NCBI RefSeq assembly: GCF_010548245.1
Contig: NZ_JAAGLR010000817.1
Location: 1 to 46,337, forward strand
Source of the DNA: Streptomyces sp. SID11385
GTDB taxonomy: Bacteria; Actinomycetota; Actinomycetes; Streptomycetales; Streptomycetaceae
Direction of reading: 5' to 3'
DNA length: 46,337 bases
In this document: piece by piece, positions 36,895-46,337 of the stretch
Numbering within the stretch: position 1 is the stretch's first letter
How the letters are laid out: each line of letters starts with the position of its first letter
Notes under the pieces: model-generated
Told to the model about the DNA's origin: nothing
The model's database searches: none
What the model saw: only the letters and a program-made list of their open reading frames with translations
Position numbers and translations under genes: made by a program

Positions 36895-37842
36895 ATGACC
36901 GGAGTTGAGCGGGTTGTCGTTGTCGGAGCGGGCGTCGCCGGGCTCACCACCGCGGTCGTTCTCGCGGAGGCGGGACTGGCGGTGCACGTGGTGGCCGAGG
37001 AGATCCCGGGGGTCACGTCGCTGGCGGCGGGGGCGATGTGGGGGCCGTACCTGGTCGAGCCGAAGGCCAAGGTGGACGAGTGGAGCCGACGGTCGCTGGA
37101 GGTCTTCCGAGAGCTGGCCGGGGACCCGGCGACGGGCGTACGGCTGACGAGCGGCATCGAGGCATCGCGTACGGCGGAGGTTCCACCGGAGTGGGCGACG
37201 ACGCTGCCGGACCATCGCCCGTGCGAGGCGGCTGAGCTGCCGCCGGGGTTCACGGCCGGATACCGGTTCACCGTGCCGCTGATCGACATGCCCGTTTACC
37301 TGGGGTACTTGCTGCGCCGGCTGGAGGCGACCGGAGGGACGGTCGAGGAGCGGCGCGTGCCCTCGCTCGCGCAGGCGGGACCGGCTGACGTGCTCGTGAA
37401 CTGCTCGGGGATGGGGGCGCGGGAGCTGGCCCCGGACGGTGATCTACGGCCGATTCGCGGTCAGCACGTCGTGGTCGAGAACCCGGGCCTGACGGAGTTC
37501 TTCTCGGAGGACACGGGGACCTCGCCGGAGCTGTTGTGCTTCTACCCGCACGGGAAGACGGTCGTGTTGGGCGGTACGGCGGTCGAGGGCGAAGTCGGCC
37601 TCGCGCGGGACGACGAGGCGGCGGCCGGGATTCTGGCCCGGTGCGCGGAAGTCGAGCCGCGACTGGCGGGGGCGCGCGTTTTGGACCACCGGGTGGGAGC
37701 CAGGCCAACCCGCGCCGCCGTGCGCGTGGAGGAGGAACGGGCGACGGTCGGGGCGCGGGTCGTGCACAACTACGGGCACGGGGGTGCGGGGGTGACGTTG
37801 TCGTGGGGGTGCGCGGGGGAAGCTCTCAGGTTGGCCCTTTAA
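36895..37842 (+). CDS. D-amino-acid-oxidase-type FAD protein
   Basis: The 315-residue flavoprotein starts with a dinucleotide-binding VVVVGAGVAGLTTAVVLAEAG, has the conserved AAGAMWGPY segment and the C-terminal DAAO signature VHNYGHGGAGVTLSWGCA. These fit D-amino-acid oxidases (DAAO, DASPO) that deaminate D-amino acids to keto acids. A Tyr/Arg pair for carboxylate binding is plausible but I did not assign it. It starts nine bases after the regulator stop and so is probably cotranscribed; a link to the operon's product is conjectural. Confidence 0.9.
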   Translation: MTGVERVVVVGAGVAGLTTAVVLAEAGLAVHVVAEEIPGVTSLAAGAMWGPYLVEPKAKVDEWSRRSLEVFRELAGDPATGVRLTSGIEASRTAEVPPEWATTLPDHRPCEAAELPPGFTAGYRFTVPLIDMPVYLGYLLRRLEATGGTVEERRVPSLAQAGPADVLVNCSGMGARELAPDGDLRPIRGQHVVVENPGLTEFFSEDTGTSPELLCFYPHGKTVVLGGTAVEGEVGLARDDEAAAGILARCAEVEPRLAGARVLDHRVGARPTRAAVRVEEERATVGARVVHNYGHGGAGVTLSWGCAGEALRLAL

Positions 37843-38064
37843 TCAGAAACTGAGCCTTTTCGATGCCGGCCGTCGGGCGCCATGTGGAGTGACCAGGGGG
37901 CGTCCTGTCGCATGGCGGGATCGCTGGTCAACAGCCTGGACCATCTACAGCCAAGGCCGAGAACCAACCCTCTGACCAGGAAGGTGCCAAGTCGAAAAGA
38001 GCTCCTTGGGTGGAGGTTTTCAAGTATTCCGCGAAGTGTCGGTGAGAGGTGGGAAGATCGGTGC
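37843..38064. other. Upstream region of STAND-nuclease gene
   Basis: No gene is supported in this gap of 222 bp. It is richer in A and T than the flanks (for example CTTTAATCAGAAACTGAG). An in-frame extension of the next gene reaches 37882 but has no ribosome site. I found no clear attachment site or tRNA fragment here, though a mobile-element border is expected near this point. Confidence 0.4.
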
Positions 38065-41000
38065 ATGGCAGGTGGTGTGTTCGGTTTCCAGGTTCCTCGG
38101 GTGTGCCAGGTCCGGGGCGGTAGCGGCCCTGAGACAGACCTGTTCACTGCAGATGACGGGGCTTTCCGAGTGGACGGCCAGGGGCTGGTGACGGAAGTGA
38201 GCCAGCTGGACGAGGGGGCGCTGGTGTCTCCGTCGGTGGTGGCGGCGTCCGGAGCGATGGTGGTGCTCGGGGAGCCGGGCGTGGGGAAGACCTCGGTGCT
38301 GACCAGTCTGGTCGAGGGGCTGCCTCGCCTGGAGGAGGTGTGGGAGTGGGAGGGGGGCGAGGACGCCTGTGTGTGGGTGTCGGGCGGGGATCTGACGGAG
38401 ACCTCATACGCGGACGAGCTCGGCTGCCACTTCGAGGCGCTGCCTGCGGCAGGCAGCACCGGCGGTGGCGCCGGAATGCTGACGGTCGTGTTGGACCAGG
38501 CCGACGAGAGCTCTTATCTGAGACATCTGTCCAAGCGGCTGAAGAGATCGTTGCGTGGCCGGGATGTCAGCCGGGTCCGGTTCCTGATGGCCTGCCGCAC
38601 GGCCGACTACCCACCCGACGCGACGGGCGTGCTGACCGAGGTTTTCGGCACATGCCGTTGCGTGGATCTGGCGCCGCTGAGTCGGCAGGAAGCGGTCGCG
38701 CTGGTCGACAGCGCCGGGGCGCCGGGGGAAGAGGTGGTGACCGCAGCCGAGGTCGCCGGTGCGGCGGCACTGGCCTGCGTCCCGCTGACCCTGGAACTGC
38801 TGGTGATGACTTACCGCGTCGACGGCCGGCTGTATGGCACGCCCCGCGAGTTGTTCGCCCGCGGTGTGCAGCACCTCGCAGAGGATCCTGACCCTGACAG
38901 GCTCAGCCACGCTGTCACCACGACCGCGCCGCAGCGCCTGGTGGTGGCTGGACGGATCGCTGCCTGGATGCTGTTGTCCGGTCACCGGAGCGTGTGGCGC
39001 GGCCACAGCCTCAGCGCAGGTACCTTCGATCTGCCCGGCGAGCGGCTGGCGTCCGGCCAAGAGCAGACGATCGCCGGCGCCTTTGACGTCACCCCGCAGG
39101 TAGTCCAAGAGACCTTAAAAACAGCCTTGTTCACGGCCCCAGATGCCAACCGGGTCTCCTTCCGGCATTCGTCCGTGGCCGCCTACCTCGCCGCGCTGTA
39201 CCTGATCGAACGTCAGGCCACACAGCGACAGCTTGAGAACCTGTTCCTGGTCGGCGCCCCCGACGGCGGGACCGCCAGCATCCCTATCCCGCTGCGGGAG
39301 ACCGCCGCCTGGTTGGTCGCGATGAACCCCACAGCCACCAGGTGGTTGGTCGGCGCCGACCCCGAGAGCCTGGCAGCACACAGCGGGCTGGTGCGGTCCG
39401 ATGAGATCCGACAGCTGACAGTGGAACGCCTCTTGGACCGCGCCGCCCAGATCGAGCTCAGCGGACACAGCTGGCAGCCGACCAACTGGGACCTCCAGCA
39501 TCCCCAGCTGGGAGACCAGCTCACCGACGTGCTCCGGGCGGCTCCCGAGGGCGAGGCAGCCGACTGGCCGACCAGGGCGCGCATCCGGCTGGCGATCCGG
39601 CTGGCGCAGGACACCGGCACCATCCACTCGGGGCTGGCCGGAGCACTCCTGCACCTGGTGGAGAACGACACCTGGCACCAGACTGAACGCCGCCTGGCCG
39701 CACGCGCGGCATTCACCTGCGACCCCGGCCTCGCCATCCCCGTCCTCAAAGAGGTCCTCGCCTCGCTCATCGACCCTGCCCACGTGGACGCTGTCGACCC
39801 CGACGACGGCCTCCGAGGCACCGTGCTGAGCGTGCTGTGGCCGGACCACCTGGACGCGGGGACCATGCTTGCAGCACTCCGTCCCCCGCGATCCCAGCAC
39901 ACCTACGGCATGTACGCCCACTTCCTGAGGATCATGCCGGATCGGTGCACGGACGAGCAGCTCCCGGAGGTCCTTACCTGGGCCGAGAAAGCCACTACTG
40001 CTTCCGCCCGGCCCGCGCCGACAGCCCAAGACAACTTGGCAGAGACCACAGTGCTGGCCAAGGGGGCCTCCGAGGACCAAGCGAGGGGCGGCTTCGACTT
40101 CGCACCCCACCGGGTGGGCTCCGGACTGCTCGACGCCTTGGTCAACCGGACCCTTAGCAGCCAGAACGCGACACAGCACCTGGACGCCCTGGCCAGGATT
40201 ATCTTCTCCCGGTTCCAGAGCCACCACACCGTTCGCATGCCCGACGCGCTGCAGCCTGACGAGCACGGACAGGAGCCCCATCACGTGCAGAAACTGCGCC
40301 ATGCCCTGGCCCATGCACTCATCGGTGAGGCCGTCCGCAGAAAGATCGAACCTCGCCTCGCGGCCTGGCTCATCGTGCGGGAATGGGAGCGCCGATCGCC
40401 TCTGCTATGGGGCTCCGCGCCCGAGCGTTTTGGCCGCCATCTCCTGCTGGACGAAGCCGACTTCCCCTGGGCATGGGAGCAGATACAGTCTGCTGCGGCA
40501 TCCGGGAACGAGGAGGTCATGCACGCCTTCGGCGAACTGGCCTCTAGCCTGTTCCCCCACGGCGACCAGGACGCCTTTGAACTGGCCTACGACAATCACC
40601 ACCCCGGTTGGCCGTACATGCGCCACCTCTACGAGGCTGTAGACCTCGGGAGCGCTCTAGCCAAGGCATGGCGCCGCAATCATCAGGGGCAGGACAGCAC
40701 CTGGCCGGAGTCGACCGCCTTCCTCGCCGAGCAGAATCACCTCCTCGCCGACGCCAGAGATGGTGACAACGACAGCCTCTGGAAGTTCCTGTGGCGCCTG
40801 CACGTAAACCCGCAGACCGGCCACTCCGAGGAGTTGTCCGACACCATCCGCGCCTGGCCGGGAAGCGCCGCCCTCCAAGACAGCCTCACCGACCTGGCCG
40901 ACCTCGCACTGCGCTACCTCACCATCGAGAACGATCACGCCGACTCCTGGCTCGGGCAGAAACTGCACGACAAGCGCTCATGGGCCGGGTACGCCCTCCT

Positions 41001-42657
41001 TACCGAACTGCACCACGCCAACCGCATCACAGACCTGCCACCTAGCGCCTGGAGGGCGTGGGCCGCGGCTCTCCTCACCGAGAACCTGCATCTGGCCACC
41101 AGCTACACCGAAGACACCCGACGGGACCTGCTGCGCATGGTCGCCGCCCACGCTCCCGAGGAACTGGCACGCCGCGTCGACCAACTGGCCCGAGCAGAAC
41201 TAGCCGACGGCAGCCAGCCTCTCCAGCTCAACCCGCTCGACCCGCGCTGGGCACCACAACTGCGCGGCGCCCTGGAGCACCTCGCCGCCGGCCTCACCGC
41301 CCGGCTCCGGGTTGTCCAGACCACCAGCACGGGATCCGTTGGACCAGCCGCCTCAGACCACAGCCCTCTGCAGGTGCCCGACACCAGCGAAGCTCGTGAC
41401 GCCGCCATACGGACCTGGCACAGCCTCCTCACTTCGCTCCTGGAAGCCGACAGCCAGGTTGCCTATGACATCGCGGAAACCGTACTCTTCGCGCCCGCCG
41501 AAGCACCTGAGTCCGCCGACCTCCTCCTACCGGCCGCCCAGGCTCTTCTGGTCACGGACGCCGCCACACACTGGCCCCGCATCCGGGCTCTTACCGCAGC
41601 CCATCCCGGCCTCAGCCACCAACTCGCCGAAGCCTGCGCCCAAGGCCACATCAGCACGCCGATCCAGACCTCCCTCGCTGAAGCGGGACTCGCAGGCCTG
41701 TACCACTGGCTTAGCGACCTGTACGCGCCCGAAGAAGACATGAACCCCCTGGGGGCCCACTGGGTGACCCCGCAGGAGCAGGCGAGACGGTGGCGGGACT
41801 CCTTGCTCGGGGAACTGAGTCAGCGGGCCACCGCGGAAGCCGTCATCGAACTCGGGAAATTGGCCAACGAGTATCCCGACAGGCTGTCTATCGCCGCGGC
41901 TCTAATCACCGCAAGAACCCAGTACAGCGCCGCTAGCTGGGACCAGGTGCGGCTGGAAGACGTCATCAAAGTCCTCCATGACCCCGCACGGCGCGTCCTC
42001 CGTACCAGTACCGATCTCCTGGCCGCTGCCAGCGAGGTCCTTGAGCAGATCGCACAGGACATCCCTTCCCATGGCGAGCTGCTCTGGGACAGGACCCCTG
42101 GCAAACGCACCCGCAGAAAACCCCCCACAGCCGAGGACGCATCGGTTCCGGACACCTGGCGGCCCAAGCCCGAAGCGGCCCTATGTGCATACCTCACACA
42201 TGAGCTTCGCCTGCGGCTGGGCGGCCACCACGTCGCGGTGAACCGGGAGGTGCTGATTCATCCCACCGACGCCTATGGCGCGGGGAACCGAACCGACATC
42301 CTCATCGACGCCATGCCGACCCCTGGCGACAGCCCCCACTCCGCCTCGGAAGAACCGGTCAAACTCGTCATTGAGGTCAAGGGGTCCTGGAACCCAGGCG
42401 TTACCACTGCTCAGGAGGGCCAGCTGGCGGGCAGGTACCTGCCCGAAACGAAGACCGACGCAGGCATCTACCTCGTGGGCTGGTACCCGATAGATCTATG
42501 GGACGCCGTGGGGGACACGCGTAAAACTCAGGCGAAGAAGCTCGACCTCAGTACGCTGCGCACGCATCTGGCCGAGCAGGCGCGGAAGATCTCCGAGGCC
42601 GCGACAGTGCACCTGCGTCCCATGGTGGTCGAAATCCCCCGGCCGTACTCCGGGTAG
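38065..42657 (+). CDS. STAND/NACHT-like NTPase with C-terminal PD-(D/E)XK motif
   Basis: The 1530-residue protein has an N-terminal P-loop NTPase: Walker A GEPGVGKTS (69-77), Walker B LTVVLDQADE (139-148) and a sensor-like RFLMACRTADYP (172-183). RVSFRHSSVAAYLAALYLIE (about 370-390) matches the winged-helix end of NACHT/STAND ATPases. About 1000 residues of helical, Leu/Ala/Trp-rich repeats follow, probably a sensor. The C-terminal part has NRTDILID (D1411), 26 residues later VIEVKG (E1437, K1439) and QLAGRYL, a PD-(D/E)XK nuclease signature. I infer an antiviral NTPase-nuclease. ATG 38065 is best but not certain. A TTA codon (residue 351) is present. Codon use is less GC-biased than neighbours, suggesting transfer. 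Confidence 0.85.
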   Translation: MAGGVFGFQVPRVCQVRGGSGPETDLFTADDGAFRVDGQGLVTEVSQLDEGALVSPSVVAASGAMVVLGEPGVGKTSVLTSLVEGLPRLEEVWEWEGGEDACVWVSGGDLTETSYADELGCHFEALPAAGSTGGGAGMLTVVLDQADESSYLRHLSKRLKRSLRGRDVSRVRFLMACRTADYPPDATGVLTEVFGTCRCVDLAPLSRQEAVALVDSAGAPGEEVVTAAEVAGAAALACVPLTLELLVMTYRVDGRLYGTPRELFARGVQHLAEDPDPDRLSHAVTTTAPQRLVVAGRIAAWMLLSGHRSVWRGHSLSAGTFDLPGERLASGQEQTIAGAFDVTPQVVQETLKTALFTAPDANRVSFRHSSVAAYLAALYLIERQATQRQLENLFLVGAPDGGTASIPIPLRETAAWLVAMNPTATRWLVGADPESLAAHSGLVRSDEIRQLTVERLLDRAAQIELSGHSWQPTNWDLQHPQLGDQLTDVLRAAPEGEAADWPTRARIRLAIRLAQDTGTIHSGLAGALLHLVENDTWHQTERRLAARAAFTCDPGLAIPVLKEVLASLIDPAHVDAVDPDDGLRGTVLSVLWPDHLDAGTMLAALRPPRSQHTYGMYAHFLRIMPDRCTDEQLPEVLTWAEKATTASARPAPTAQDNLAETTVLAKGASEDQARGGFDFAPHRVGSGLLDALVNRTLSSQNATQHLDALARIIFSRFQSHHTVRMPDALQPDEHGQEPHHVQKLRHALAHALIGEAVRRKIEPRLAAWLIVREWERRSPLLWGSAPERFGRHLLLDEADFPWAWEQIQSAAASGNEEVMHAFGELASSLFPHGDQDAFELAYDNHHPGWPYMRHLYEAVDLGSALAKAWRRNHQGQDSTWPESTAFLAEQNHLLADARDGDNDSLWKFLWRLHVNPQTGHSEELSDTIRAWPGSAALQDSLTDLADLALRYLTIENDHADSWLGQKLHDKRSWAGYALLTELHHANRITDLPPSAWRAWAAALLTENLHLATSYTEDTRRDLLRMVAAHAPEELARRVDQLARAELADGSQPLQLNPLDPRWAPQLRGALEHLAAGLTARLRVVQTTSTGSVGPAASDHSPLQVPDTSEARDAAIRTWHSLLTSLLEADSQVAYDIAETVLFAPAEAPESADLLLPAAQALLVTDAATHWPRIRALTAAHPGLSHQLAEACAQGHISTPIQTSLAEAGLAGLYHWLSDLYAPEEDMNPLGAHWVTPQEQARRWRDSLLGELSQRATAEAVIELGKLANEYPDRLSIAAALITARTQYSAASWDQVRLEDVIKVLHDPARRVLRTSTDLLAAASEVLEQIAQDIPSHGELLWDRTPGKRTRRKPPTAEDASVPDTWRPKPEAALCAYLTHELRLRLGGHHVAVNREVLIHPTDAYGAGNRTDILIDAMPTPGDSPHSASEEPVKLVIEVKGSWNPGVTTAQEGQLAGRYLPETKTDAGIYLVGWYPIDLWDAVGDTRKTQAKKLDLSTLRTHLAEQARKISEAATVHLRPMVVEIPRPYSG

Positions 42658-42721
42658 AGGCAGTGCTCACCCAGACTGCTGGCCAGGTGAGTGGTCCACA
42701 ATATTTACCGTCACATACGTC
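42658..42721. terminator. Convergent gap with terminator-like hairpin
   Basis: CTCACC at 42666-42671 and GGTGAG at 42686-42691 form a stem, with an inner CCAG/CTGG pairing, between the 3' ends of the NTPase and relaxase genes. Followed by the AT-rich CACAATATTTACC, it is a fair bidirectional terminator candidate. Confidence 0.4.
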
Positions 42722-44422
42722 TCAGCGACGCCGTGAACGGCTGCTCATCGGTGCGGGAGCCGGTGCACGATCCGGCGTAGAGGACTTGGAAACCCGGCGA
42801 TTCGCGCGGGTGGTGCTGGGTGCGTCGGCAGGTAGAGCAGCCAACTGCCGTATGCGCCACACCAGGACGTCGCTGACGTGCTCGGCCGAGTGCAGCTCGC
42901 GCCGCGCCGACGCCTTGCGGAGGAGTACGCACGGATCGCCGCCCCCGCGTCGCACCTCGTCGAGGGTCGCCGCAAGCGCGGGCCAGCCTGGCTCGGCGAG
43001 GACGCGGTCGGCGCGGTCGGGGAGGGCGTCGTGGAGGGTGGCGGCGTGGTGGCGGCGCTGGGTGGGCGTGAGCACCGTGCCGTGCTTGTGGAGGCGTGCC
43101 AGAGGTGCGGCGGCGGCCGTTCCGTAGGCGGCGCGCAGGTGCTCAGCGGCCCGGTGAGCCGCTTCGGCCTGCTGCTCGTGGTGCTTGGCCGCGTGCCAGC
43201 GGGCTGCGGCGGTGACCAGGAAGACGAGCATGTCCAGCGCCATCGCTGTGGCGGCTCCCTCCTCGCCCCGGCCGAAGGCCGGGCCGCTGTGGACGAGGTC
43301 GCGGGCCGCTCGGCGCAGCGCTTGGCTGTGGCCGTGGGCGGCGCGGATGTGGGAGCGGGAGGCGCGTTCGTAGGCGGTCGCGGCTGCGCGTAGTTCCTGG
43401 CGGGTGTGCGCGGCGGAGGTCTGGGCGAGGGCGTCGAGGACTTCTCCGGTGGCGGCGACGTGCGCGGCGACGATGGTGTCCTCGCCGTGGTCTATGACGA
43501 GGAGCGCTTCCCAGGCGGCGGTCATGGTGCGGCGGCGTGCGAGCGCGGGGCCGTTGGTCACGGGGAGATCCGTCCGCCGCGTAGTCTCCGGCGCGGCCCA
43601 ACGGGCGCGGACGCGCGGGAGGGAGAGGTCGGGGGCGAGCTTGGAGCCGGAGTACCAGACGGGTTCGTTCTTGCCGTTGCGGTCGCCGGGCTGGGCGACG
43701 GTGTAGCCGATGACGTCGCCCGAGGGTGCGACGCGCGTGCGGACGCGCAGGCCGGCCTCGGAGATGCGGCGGAAGAACTCCGCGTCGCTGGACGCGCCCG
43801 CGACGGCGCTCCGGACGGCTTGGCGGAGCTCTTCGCGGGGTGTGCGGTCACGGTTCCTGCGAGCGGCCTTGTGCTGCTCGGCGGGGGTGGGGCGCTTCGC
43901 GGCGGTGCCGTCGCCCGTCCTCACGCGGCGCAGCCCGTAGTCCTTCTCGATGGCGCGGCACTCGGTCTGCGCGCGCTTGGCGGAGAGGTGGTGGCGGGGG
44001 CGGCGGCCGTCCTCGCGTATGAGGGTCGCGACGAGGTGGATGTGGTCGTCGGCGTGGCGGACGGCTGCCCAGCGGCAGCCCGCGCCGTCGCCGGGGTCGA
44101 TGCCGGTGGCGGCGACGACGCGGCGCGCGATGGCGGCCCACTCGGCGTCCGTGAGGGTCCGGTCCTCGGGGGCGGCGCGTACGGACGCGTGCCACACGTG
44201 GTCGGCGGGGCGGGCGTCGACGGGCAGGAGGTGCAGCGGCTCGTCGAGGAGGCGGGCGAGGTCGGCGCGGGCGGTGCCCGAGTCACGGCCGGGGTCGGGG
44301 GCCTGGTGGTCGAAGGAGGCGACGAGGTGCGGGTCGGTGTGCTCCTCGCGGCGGCCCGGCCCGTAGAGGTAGGCGAGGAGGCGGGCCGTGTCGCGCCCCT
44401 GCTTGTGGAGGGACGGGATCAT
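42722..44422 (-). CDS. Relaxase/mobilisation nuclease
   Basis: The 566-residue relaxase nicks a transfer origin and leads single-stranded DNA transfer. The metal-binding three-histidine motif appears as RHADDHIHLVATLIREDG, after an N-terminal MIPSLHKQGRDTARLLAYLYGPG typical of actinobacterial plasmid relaxases. A long helical C-terminal half is Ala/Arg-rich. Its ATG overlaps the stop of mobC by four bases (ATGA). The 3' part near 42722-42850 is Ser/Arg-rich and may be variable. With MobC it forms the mobilisation core of an integrated or plasmid-derived element; no integrase or oriT was identified within the window. Confidence 0.9.
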   Translation of the reverse strand: MIPSLHKQGRDTARLLAYLYGPGRREEHTDPHLVASFDHQAPDPGRDSGTARADLARLLDEPLHLLPVDARPADHVWHASVRAAPEDRTLTDAEWAAIARRVVAATGIDPGDGAGCRWAAVRHADDHIHLVATLIREDGRRPRHHLSAKRAQTECRAIEKDYGLRRVRTGDGTAAKRPTPAEQHKAARRNRDRTPREELRQAVRSAVAGASSDAEFFRRISEAGLRVRTRVAPSGDVIGYTVAQPGDRNGKNEPVWYSGSKLAPDLSLPRVRARWAAPETTRRTDLPVTNGPALARRRTMTAAWEALLVIDHGEDTIVAAHVAATGEVLDALAQTSAAHTRQELRAAATAYERASRSHIRAAHGHSQALRRAARDLVHSGPAFGRGEEGAATAMALDMLVFLVTAAARWHAAKHHEQQAEAAHRAAEHLRAAYGTAAAAPLARLHKHGTVLTPTQRRHHAATLHDALPDRADRVLAEPGWPALAATLDEVRRGGGDPCVLLRKASARRELHSAEHVSDVLVWRIRQLAALPADAPSTTRANRRVSKSSTPDRAPAPAPMSSRSRRR

Positions 44423-45021
44423 CGGGCCGGCCCGCCCGCCTCCGGACCGGTCATGCGGGCAGTCAGCCGCCGTATCCCCTCGGCGGCCTGGCGGGTGGCG
44501 GTGAGAGTGGCCTCCAAGCCGGTCGGGTAGACGCCGCTGTTCAGGGCGTGGGCGACCTGGTTGAGGTTGTTGCCGATGTGACCGAGCTGGCGTTGCAGGC
44601 TGAAGAGTGCGGTCAGGGTGTCGCGTCGGTCGGCGATGGTGGCGGCGGTGCGGTCGAGGTCGCGGGCGGCGGCGAGGCCGCTGTGCGCGAGGAATCCGGC
44701 CACGCTCATCCCGACCGTGTCTGCCGCCGTGCTGACGGCGGCGAGTTCGGACTCGCTGAGGCGGACGCTGTGCGCGCGGCGCTGCTCGCGCTCGCGGATA
44801 CGGGCCTTGGCCCGGCGCCCTCCCCGCTGCGCACCGTCCTCGGTCGCCGCCTTCCGTGCCCCCTGGCTCGGGAGCGGGCCCGCCACCCCTGGGGCGGGCT
44901 CTGGTTCGGACGCGCCCCCGACGGGGGAGTGTCCGAACCTACAACTTGCTCCGCCTGAAAGGTCGGTGGACGACTGATGCTGCTGGGACGGTGCGGGGGT
45001 GTCGCGGTGCTGCTGGTACAT
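44419..45021 (-). CDS. mobC: MobC-family relaxosome accessory protein
   Basis: The 200-residue protein helps the relaxase at oriT. A disordered N-terminal ~70 residues precede the conserved domain: SVRLSESELAAVSTAADTVGMSVAGFLAHSGL (ribbon-helix-helix-like) and RQLGHIGNNLNQVAHALNSG, the MobC signature. It is translationally coupled to the relaxase. The gene is preceded by 19 bp from the upstream membrane-protein gene, so the three form one transcription unit. Confidence 0.9.
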   Translation of the reverse strand: MYQQHRDTPAPSQQHQSSTDLSGGASCRFGHSPVGGASEPEPAPGVAGPLPSQGARKAATEDGAQRGGRRAKARIREREQRRAHSVRLSESELAAVSTAADTVGMSVAGFLAHSGLAAARDLDRTAATIADRRDTLTALFSLQRQLGHIGNNLNQVAHALNSGVYPTGLEATLTATRQAAEGIRRLTARMTGPEAGGPAR

Positions 45022-45040
45022 GGCTCTCCTACGAGGGGGT

Positions 45041-46288
45041 TCAGCCGGTGGGGCGTCTCAGTTCGGCCTTGAGCTCGCGGACGATCTCGCCCGCGTGGTC
45101 GCTGGCGACGCTGTATCCGGCCTCGCGCACGGCCTTCTCCAGGAGGTCGCGGGACAGGCGGCCCTGCGAGGCGTGGATCTTGCGCGCGACGCGGCGCAGG
45201 CGGTCGTCGGAGGCGCGGGACTTGCGGCCCGGGGAGTGGTGAGGCTCGGGATCCGTACCGGTCGCGGGCGCAAGCGTCCCGCCATGCCCGCCCGGCCTGT
45301 CCGGGCGGGCGGTGTCGTCGGGCCGGGCTGTTTCCGGGCGGGCGGTGTCGTCGGGCTGTGCTGTTTCCGGGCGGGCGACGGGCTGAAAGGGCGCTCCGCC
45401 CGGGTGCTCCCGAGCTCCGTCCGCTGCCCGCCCGGCAGTGCTCACCTGCGTGGCGACGGCCCGCCCGCCCGTCCCCGCCCAGCGCGCGGGCAGGTCGATG
45501 GTCGCCAGGTCAGCGGCCTGACGGCGGGTCGCGAGCTGCCGGAGGAACTGCCCGTCGCGGGTGGGATCGGCGTCGATCCCCGCCCGTGCGAGTGCCCGCG
45601 ACAAGCGGCGGATCACGCGCCGCCCGGACCGCCTCGCCCGCCGCCCGGGCGGCATTTCCGCGAGCCGGGCGGCCAGGGCGACGGCCCGCCGCGCCGCCCG
45701 GTCCCGGGCGATCTGCGCGGCTCCCCGGTCCTGCTCGACGATCCCGAGCCGGGCCAGCAGCCGCTCACGCCCCTGCCGTATGAGGACCGCGCCCAGCCCG
45801 CGCGACGCGGCGTCGGGCGTACGGTGCCGGAGCTCGATGCCCATCGCCGAGTGCCAGAGCACGGCGGCCATCACGGGTCCGACGAAGGCCCGCACCGTTC
45901 CCCCGACAGGCCCGGACTCGGCGTACGCGGGAAGGGTCTGCACGGCGGTGATCACCCACACCAGGACCCCGGGCAGCCCGGCCGCCCGCCTCGGCCCGTG
46001 CAGGTTCTGCCGCGCCAGCAGCGCCATCGCGAACAGCGCGAGCTCGGCGGCGCCGAACATCACCGTCCGCTCGGCACCGTCCCGCATGTCGAGGTGATGC
46101 GCCGCGAACCGCCAGCTCGTGTCCGCGCTGTACGCGGTGCAGCACGCGGCGGCGAGCGCGGCGACCTTCACCGCGACCGTGCCGCGCCCGCCCGTGCGGA
46201 CTCGCCGGAGACGGCCGGCGACGAGGAGGACGACTGCGACGAGCACTCCGCCGACCGCGAGCGGCGCGGTTCCGAGCGGGTTGGTCAC
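45041..46288 (-). CDS. SpdB/DUF2637-like membrane protein
   Basis: The 415-residue protein has about four hydrophobic segments in the first 150 residues (for example VGGVLVAVVLLVAG, VLVWVITAVQTLPAY, AFVGPVMAAVLWHSAMGIEL), then a charged Arg/Ala-rich cytoplasmic part and a Pro/Asp/Thr tandem-repeat linker. The C-terminal ~50 residues (RLRRVARKIHASQGRLSRDLLEKAVREAGYSV) look like a small helix-turn-helix. This organisation is that of DUF2637/SpdB spread proteins on Streptomyces conjugative plasmids. GTG 46288 has GGGAGG upstream and overlaps the preceding gene's stop by four bases. Confidence 0.82.
   Translation of the reverse strand: MTNPLGTAPLAVGGVLVAVVLLVAGRLRRVRTGGRGTVAVKVAALAAACCTAYSADTSWRFAAHHLDMRDGAERTVMFGAAELALFAMALLARQNLHGPRRAAGLPGVLVWVITAVQTLPAYAESGPVGGTVRAFVGPVMAAVLWHSAMGIELRHRTPDAASRGLGAVLIRQGRERLLARLGIVEQDRGAAQIARDRAARRAVALAARLAEMPPGRRARRSGRRVIRRLSRALARAGIDADPTRDGQFLRQLATRRQAADLATIDLPARWAGTGGRAVATQVSTAGRAADGAREHPGGAPFQPVARPETAQPDDTARPETARPDDTARPDRPGGHGGTLAPATGTDPEPHHSPGRKSRASDDRLRRVARKIHASQGRLSRDLLEKAVREAGYSVASDHAGEIVRELKAELRRPTG
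45301..45383. repeat. 33-bp tandem repeat inside the SpdB-like gene
   Basis: Two and a half copies of a 33-bp unit (45301-45333, 45334-45366, partial from 45367) encode the 11-residue repeat ARPDDTARPET-like in the linker of the membrane protein. Copy number may vary between strains. Confidence 0.75.
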
Positions 46289-46337
46289 GCTGCCTCCCGC
46301 TTGCCGCGCGCCACGGCGAGGTCGCGGCGCGTCGGGT
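46285..46337 (-). CDS. Partial CDS at window edge (C-terminal 16 residues)
   Basis: The minus strand ends with PTRRDLAVARGKREAA followed by a stop whose TGA overlaps the GTG start of the SpdB-like gene (GTGA). The coupling implies a real gene continuing past the window, probably another transfer function. No family can be recognised from the fragment. Confidence 0.5.
   Translation of the reverse strand, partial: PTRRDLAVARGKREAA

Follow-up and report, generated by a model that had tools for sequence, protein, structure and literature searches.

Avs proteins are large STAND NTPases in which the effector generally comes first, and in most descriptions of NLR-type proteins the effector precedes the switch and the sensor follows it. 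As given in the available part of one report (PMC12169576), the C-terminus of bNACHT proteins senses and the N-terminus is the effector. GT4 domains located C-terminal to STAND NTPases are predicted effectors according to the available part of a second report (PMC8195603). In addition, NCBIfam holds two families with antiphage names, EruA (NF058535) and HyoA (NF058534). Our literature search found no papers on either of them, so the word "antiphage" rests for both on the NCBIfam family names. A literature match to an E. coli regulator of the same name was unrelated and was discarded.

The gene analysed here lies on a contig of Streptomyces sp. SID11385, the whole of which, 46,337 nucleotides, is called the window. 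The source genome, assembled as a 7.5 Mb draft of 1202 contigs, has one copy of the gene. The P-loop of the encoded protein starts at residue 69 and the predicted nuclease comes last; the usual bNACHT/NLR-like layout (N-terminal effector, central NACHT, C-terminal sensor) was not found in it. It resembles bNACHT25 in joining a NACHT switch to a PD-(D/E)XK nuclease, but in bNACHT25, as far as the available part of the source goes (PMC12169576), the DNase occupies the N-terminus and sensing falls to the C-terminus, whereas the window protein starts with the NACHT module and ends with the nuclease. We consider that the protein probably works on its own in phage defence, as an NLR-like member of the EruA/HyoA superfamily with a C-terminal effector, a likely function for a large gene of the source genome that neither Pfam nor PADLOC calls.

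The gene and its domain map

Within an open frame at 37882-42657 (+), the ATG at 38065 opens a gene (38065-42657, +) for an intact protein of 1530 residues with no internal stop. This start is supported by the first residues, which are conserved in both close homologues aligned, by the DNA similarity to three close homologues, which starts at 38037, 28 bases upstream of the ATG, and by a purine-rich stretch in front of it. The G+C content of the gene is 67.4%, against 71.5% for the window. The features of the gene, all on the + strand, are as follows.

38044..38056, +, purine-rich stretch, possible ribosome-binding site (read in the sequence)
38065..42657, +, single gene (P0001) for the NACHT-helical-nuclease protein (frame and full-length relatives)
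38065..39648, +, predicted NLR-type NACHT module, about residues 1-528, of which 1-47 are poorly modelled (model, Foldseek, VIA)
38269..38295, +, Walker A, GEPGVGKTS, residues 69-77 (pattern in 34/36 family members)
38479..38511, +, Walker B region, LTVVLDQADES, residues 139-149 (sequence; LDQADE is 143-148)
39160..39204, +, FRHSSVAAYLAALYL, residues 366-380, with the nearly invariant H368 (alignment)
40045..41814, +, most variable large stretch, residues 661-1250, likely sensor (column identity)
42151..42654, +, predicted PD-(D/E)XK nuclease domain, residues 1363-1530 (model, VIA)
42172..42174, +, codon of E1370, invariant (alignment)
42295..42297, +, codon of D1411, invariant (alignment)
42373..42381, +, ExK motif, E1437-V-K1439, with E and K invariant (alignment)
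42421..42438, +, Q1453-L-x3-Y1458, with Q, L and Y invariant (alignment)

All the motifs quoted in the initial annotation were found where it had placed them, namely GEPGVGKTS at 69-77, LDQADE at 143-148, RHSSVAAYLAA at 367-377, D1411, E1437 and K1439. It had also described about 1000 residues of helical repeats, of which our models bear on a part only, since they cover residues 1-660 and 1180-1530.

The NACHT module, the C-terminal domain and the variable middle

The AlphaFold2 model of residues 1-660 (11 rows) reached a pLDDT of 75.9 and a pTM of 0.74. In a Foldseek search with this model NOD2 was the top match (E 1.3e-10), NLRP and NLRC4 chains came next, and 102 chains were matched at E <= 0.001. 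VIA aligned residues 1-528 with residues 114-661 of NLRC4 (Z 20.8, rmsd 5.2 over 402 residues), followed by NLRP3 at Z 18-19. These matches bear out the NACHT/STAND NTPase that had been assigned to the N-terminus, a switch of the type known from immune sensors of animals. As the alignment with NLRC4 takes in residues 1-528, the NACHT module is larger than the nucleotide-binding core. RHSSVAAYLAA had been counted to the P-loop domain; it is present, but it aligns in the model beyond the NLR nucleotide-binding core. H368, which lies in FRHSSVAAYLAA, is kept in 23 of 24 alignment rows. In NLR proteins, a winged-helix histidine in a similar motif holds ADP. Judged from the model, the window protein combines Walker A and Walker B with a predicted NLR-type NACHT fold, as expected of a NACHT/STAND protein.

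Sequence profiles gave low scores for this part. The Pfam NACHT score of the window protein was 15.6 bits, below the cut-off of 26.7, and its Pfam P-loop scores were all under their cut-offs. A phmmer search of the PDB yielded no sequence relative, the single match (E 2.4) being meaningless; profile searches of the PDB matched AAA+ P-loop, designed-repeat and clamp-loader proteins and, over the NTPase part, Avs4 (8dgf, E 0.0017). The protein is like Avs in being a large STAND NTPase with this weak sequence match, but differs in effector order and in matching no PADLOC 2.0 model at E <= 1, a model set that we take to include Avs. In a motif scan of 36 family members, the Walker A pattern was present in 34. 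The two members without a recognisable Walker A (L055, 5250-9242, and L065, 6348-10796) have an intact nuclease motif; they are possibly inactive switches or have wrongly extended N-termini.

The AlphaFold2 model of residues 1180-1530 (12 rows; pLDDT 77.7, pTM 0.57) ends in a helix-strand-strand-strand-helix-strand succession, that is, an alpha-beta-beta-beta-alpha-beta core. E1370 begins the first helix of this core; the second strand carries D1411, the third carries both E1437 and K1439, and the helix after it carries Q1453 and Y1458. The predicted core, with the D and the (D/E)xK on strands, is that of a PD-(D/E)XK nuclease. Foldseek gave zero PDB matches to this model at E <= 0.001; the best was MUS81 (E 0.04), and BamHI ranked fifth. 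The Foldseek candidates were then aligned by VIA, which warns that Z values below 8 may mean little; the leading nucleases lay slightly above this value, BamHI with 8.8 (rmsd 4.5, 156 residues), barely past "middling", OkrAI with 8.4, Can2 with 8.3 (rmsd 2.9, 121 residues) and BstYI with 8.1. The best 11 of the 50 rows listed were all PD-(D/E)XK nucleases, and McrC (6hz4) was among the matches at Z 7.3, below that warning value.

The family alignment comprises 24 rows, of which three are 60-61% and twenty 15-26% identical to the window protein. Nine columns are invariant in all 24 (P240, E1370, E1395, D1411, E1437, K1439, Q1453, L1454 and Y1458), and eight of these lie in the nuclease region, which shows that the motifs quoted initially are more than chance. 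In the scan of 36 members, the pattern ExK...QL...Y occurred in all 33 that have no glycosyltransferase domain and in none of the three that have one. Pfam recognised P-loop, HEAT and other families in the 24 members, and zero nuclease family was among the best 25 of 26 families. The case for a C-terminal PD-(D/E)XK fold is moderate from the predicted structure alone and strong when structure and invariant residues are taken together. Thus the nuclease call of the initial annotation, including its REase-like C-terminal fold, is supported, but it no longer depends on three motifs, as family-wide invariance and a fold model with BamHI at the head of the VIA matches now stand behind it.

Averaged over the 24 rows, column identity is 0.26 for residues 61-210 and 0.25-0.26 for 211-420, both in the NACHT core, 0.14-0.17 for 661-1250 and 0.32 for 1366-1480, the nuclease core. 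The three close homologues are 47-54% identical to the window protein in 661-1250, against 76-79% in 1361-1480. Being the most variable large stretch, residues 661-1250 are likely the sensor, and phage recognition may take place in this variable middle. It is not the sole candidate, since residues 1-60 are also variable among the close homologues (47-55% identity).

Kinship with EruA and HyoA and a probable C-terminal effector position

In an NCBIfam search at E <= 1, the sole match of the window protein was EruA (E 6.8e-52), with 176.9 bits, which does not reach the curated cut-off of 1000 bits. Profile positions 72-556 and 1060-1272 were matched, by the NTPase part and, separately, by the nuclease region (41752-42486). 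HyoA, with a cut-off of 1200 bits, was not matched at E <= 1. When the members of the 24-row alignment were searched at E <= 0.01, all 24 matched EruA and 18 matched HyoA. Two relatives exceeded the EruA cut-off, one on a Vibrio campbellii plasmid (L076, 1478 bits) and one on a Bradyrhizobium plasmid (L074, 1035 bits); a Dysgonomonadaceae plasmid protein exceeded that of HyoA (L095, 1635 bits), with a near member at 972 bits (L096). Among genomes of the phylum, 57 of 396 matched the EruA model, mostly by short P-loop matches and none over the cut-off, and 2 of 14 control genomes also matched under the cut-off.

The window protein shares with EruA the N-terminal NACHT, the long helical middle and the C-terminal PD-(D/E)XK domain with the same E, D, ExK, Q and Y, all in a single gene, but is only 15-18% identical to the EruA-clade rows of the 24-row alignment. 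The domain order is common to HyoA too, and both L095 and L096 have the nuclease; the differences are the lack of a HyoA match at E <= 1 and the position in the tree. The initial annotation had called this order unusual. It is indeed opposite to the bNACHT layout described in the available part of PMC12169576, but it is not unique to the window protein, since EruA and HyoA members above their cut-offs share it.

A tree of the NTPase region was built from 32 rows, including three with a C-terminal glycosyltransferase, and was rooted at the midpoint only. The EruA-type clade (12 rows, 100/99) excludes the window protein, which is also outside the HyoA pair (100/100). Together with three Streptomyces homologues it forms a group (100/100) outside the EruA, HyoA and glycosyltransferase groups; the branch uniting the other 18 rows has a support of 86/81 only. 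Judged by sequence, the window protein is a divergent relative of the two antiphage-named families and not an orphan. More tentatively, with slightly less than even confidence, we suggest that EruA, HyoA and a third lineage, as yet unnamed, to which the window protein belongs, make up a superfamily of "inverted" bacterial NLRs. These would have an N-terminal NACHT, a variable solenoid sensor and a C-terminal plug-in effector slot, which holds a PD-(D/E)XK nuclease in most members and a GT4 glycosyltransferase in some.

Four relatives carry a C-terminal glycosyltransferase in place of the nuclease.

L078, 7881-12887, glycosyltransferase-type relative on a viral contig
L092, 5986-10941, glycosyltransferase-type relative on a Sinorhizobium plasmid
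L093, 7977-12890, glycosyltransferase-type relative on a Rhizobium plasmid
L094, 5977-10890, glycosyltransferase-type relative on a Rhizobium plasmid, near-copy of L093

L078 aligns at 27% identity with residues 27-1209 of the Dolichospermum relative, and the C-terminus of L078 (residues 1251-1643) matches the Pfam GT4-conflict glycosyltransferase family (PF20706, E 2.4e-105). Each of the three plasmid relatives could be aligned to L078 in both of its halves. A family-derived nuclease profile matched L095 and L096 and found nothing in these four proteins. In the tree, the three glycosyltransferase rows cluster together (98/96), flanked on either side by nuclease-bearing rows. Since the nuclease is replaced by a glycosyltransferase in these relatives, the C-terminus appears to be a swappable effector position, which supports an effector slot at this end of the window protein. 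The C-terminal place of the effector agrees with that of the STAND NTPases with C-terminal GT4 in the available part of PMC8195603, except that the window protein has a nuclease instead. In another member (L061, 7351-11772) the nuclease is kept and is followed by a nucleotidyltransferase domain (PF01909, residues 1393-1460); the NCBIfam matches of the 24 aligned proteins include an MntA antitoxin.

An NTPase and a PD-(D/E)XK nuclease on one chain, together with McrC among the structural matches of the nuclease, could also suggest an McrBC-like, NTP-driven restriction enzyme, in which the NTPase powers or licenses the nuclease on foreign or modified DNA and the helical part binds DNA. We consider this unlikely, because the NTPase model fits the NLR NACHT far better than any listed restriction translocase, because a restriction enzyme would not tolerate the replacement of its nuclease by a glycosyltransferase, and because the helical part is the least conserved.

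For the phage-defence protein with a C-terminal effector, which we prefer, the following sequence of events may be proposed. At rest, the NACHT module would hold ADP and the protein would be monomeric. The variable helical region 661-1250 would recognise a phage product or a phage-caused disturbance, whereupon ADP would be exchanged for ATP and the NACHT modules would oligomerise. Oligomerisation would pair the C-terminal nucleases, so that DNA would be cut and the infection would abort. We infer here the phage as target, the trigger, the oligomerisation and DNA as the substrate, and with them the antiphage activity and DNA cleavage of the window protein. With the conserved effector at the far end, the question is raised of how a NACHT switch signals to the C-terminus across some 600 variable residues; the natural exchange of nuclease for glycosyltransferase provides a matched pair for testing the passage of this signal.

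The locus and the occurrence of relatives

The gene is flanked as follows.

36895..37842, +, FAD-dependent oxidoreductase (DAO) gene, left flank (PF01266, E 2.8e-36)
37819..42718, no strand, 4900-base stretch missing from a near relative (G010), which has 80 bases instead (flank comparison)
42722..44422, -, MobA/VirD2-like relaxase gene, right flank (PF03432, E 1e-8)
44419..45021, -, NikA/MobC-like mobilisation protein gene (PF21983, E 4.9e-9; PF05713, E 7.8e-8)

The near relative G010 is a genome with no match to the protein; its flanks (L117 9680-14252 against window 36916-46337) are 94.6% identical in the oxidoreductase and 93.9% in the relaxase, which reads there as two overlapping frames. 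Since the same flanks stand 80 bases apart without the gene in G010, the gene is, on this comparison of sequences, to be regarded as a movable one-gene cargo. Neither direct repeats of >= 9 bases shared by the two borders of the insertion nor inverted repeats of >= 8 bases were found there, and no similarity to three close homologues was found outside the gene at the thresholds used. A phage-integrase gene lies directly upstream of one close homologue (L062). In another genome (G006; L118 6815-10271), the same two flanks enclose other cargo, including a DUF317/SPDY protein, which is not a known defence gene.

The initial annotation took the lone gene beside a mobilisation module for the cargo of a defence island. 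Its insertion between the oxidoreductase and relaxase genes agrees with cargo, but the relaxase occurs without the gene in relatives, and a scan of four neighbouring genes in the window gave no convincing defence gene. A PADLOC match of the oxidoreductase covered a 28-residue dinucleotide-binding stretch and was not taken as defence. "mad2", the one PADLOC match from ten genes near two close homologues, is a generic methyltransferase by Pfam and was likewise set aside.

The loci of 18 plasmid-borne relatives were fetched, 15 annotated and three without annotation. A defence-named gene was nearby at 5 of the 15 annotated loci (TIR at L053, NACHT at L056, TrlF at L069, Ppl and Abi at L071, SIR2 at L093) and an integrase or recombinase at 8 of the 15, the background rate being computed for neither count; the neighbours of the Streptomyces eurythermus homologue look metabolic.

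The relaxase next door, the plasmid-borne relatives and the integrases or recombinases near them would also fit a defence directed mainly at plasmids and other mobile elements, or a competition among these, rather than at phages. This reading seems improbable to us, as EruA and HyoA are named antiphage, relatives are also found in IMG/VR viral contigs, and plasmid carriage is to be expected where a plasmid collection was searched on purpose. In that collection, 9 of 72,556 records matched, all at less than 60% identity (Streptomyces, Rhodococcus, Bradyrhizobium and Dolichospermum). With the window protein as query, no relative was found in 50,697 phage records and no match in IMG/VR viral contigs; the Vibrio EruA query matched one unannotated phage record, and the IMG/VR relatives were found only with A4, A5 and L076 as queries.

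A peptide-pattern scan of 84,980 species genomes found two full-length relatives, in S. eurythermus and Streptomyces sp. WELS2, both 59% identical to the window protein in the best segment. Within the genus, 11 of 246 genomes match, the source genome included, and four hold an unbroken close full-length copy (the source genome, G181, G102 and G163). Two others have distant copies with frames of 1448 and 1483 residues (G091 and G136, respectively), and four have short matches only (G006, G043, G062 and G101). A housekeeping or regulatory STAND protein, with a nuclease-like domain that is no defence effector, would accord with the metabolic-looking S. eurythermus locus and with the lack of a recognised defence gene beside the window gene. 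We regard it as very unlikely in view of this patchy distribution, the absence of the gene from the same site in the near relative and the invariance of the catalytic-type residues. Phage defence with a C-terminal effector is thus still the reading that we favour.

Several minor observations were made on the way. The homologue in G058 (L063 6876-11429) is broken by an in-frame stop and is probably decaying. The distant relative in G091 occurs twice on contig C1, at 63203-67033 and 10199618-10203448, in opposite orientation and near both ends of the 10.27 Mb contig; that in G136 (C1 7763401-7764111) lies roughly 24 kb inside one end of its 7.79 Mb contig, so that the distant relatives in both genomes are subterminal. 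At another locus (L129 2005-5542), a UvrD-like helicase gene adjoins an OLD-TOPRIM ATPase gene 3.6 kb from a relaxase gene like that of the window, a pair that we take to be Gabija-like.
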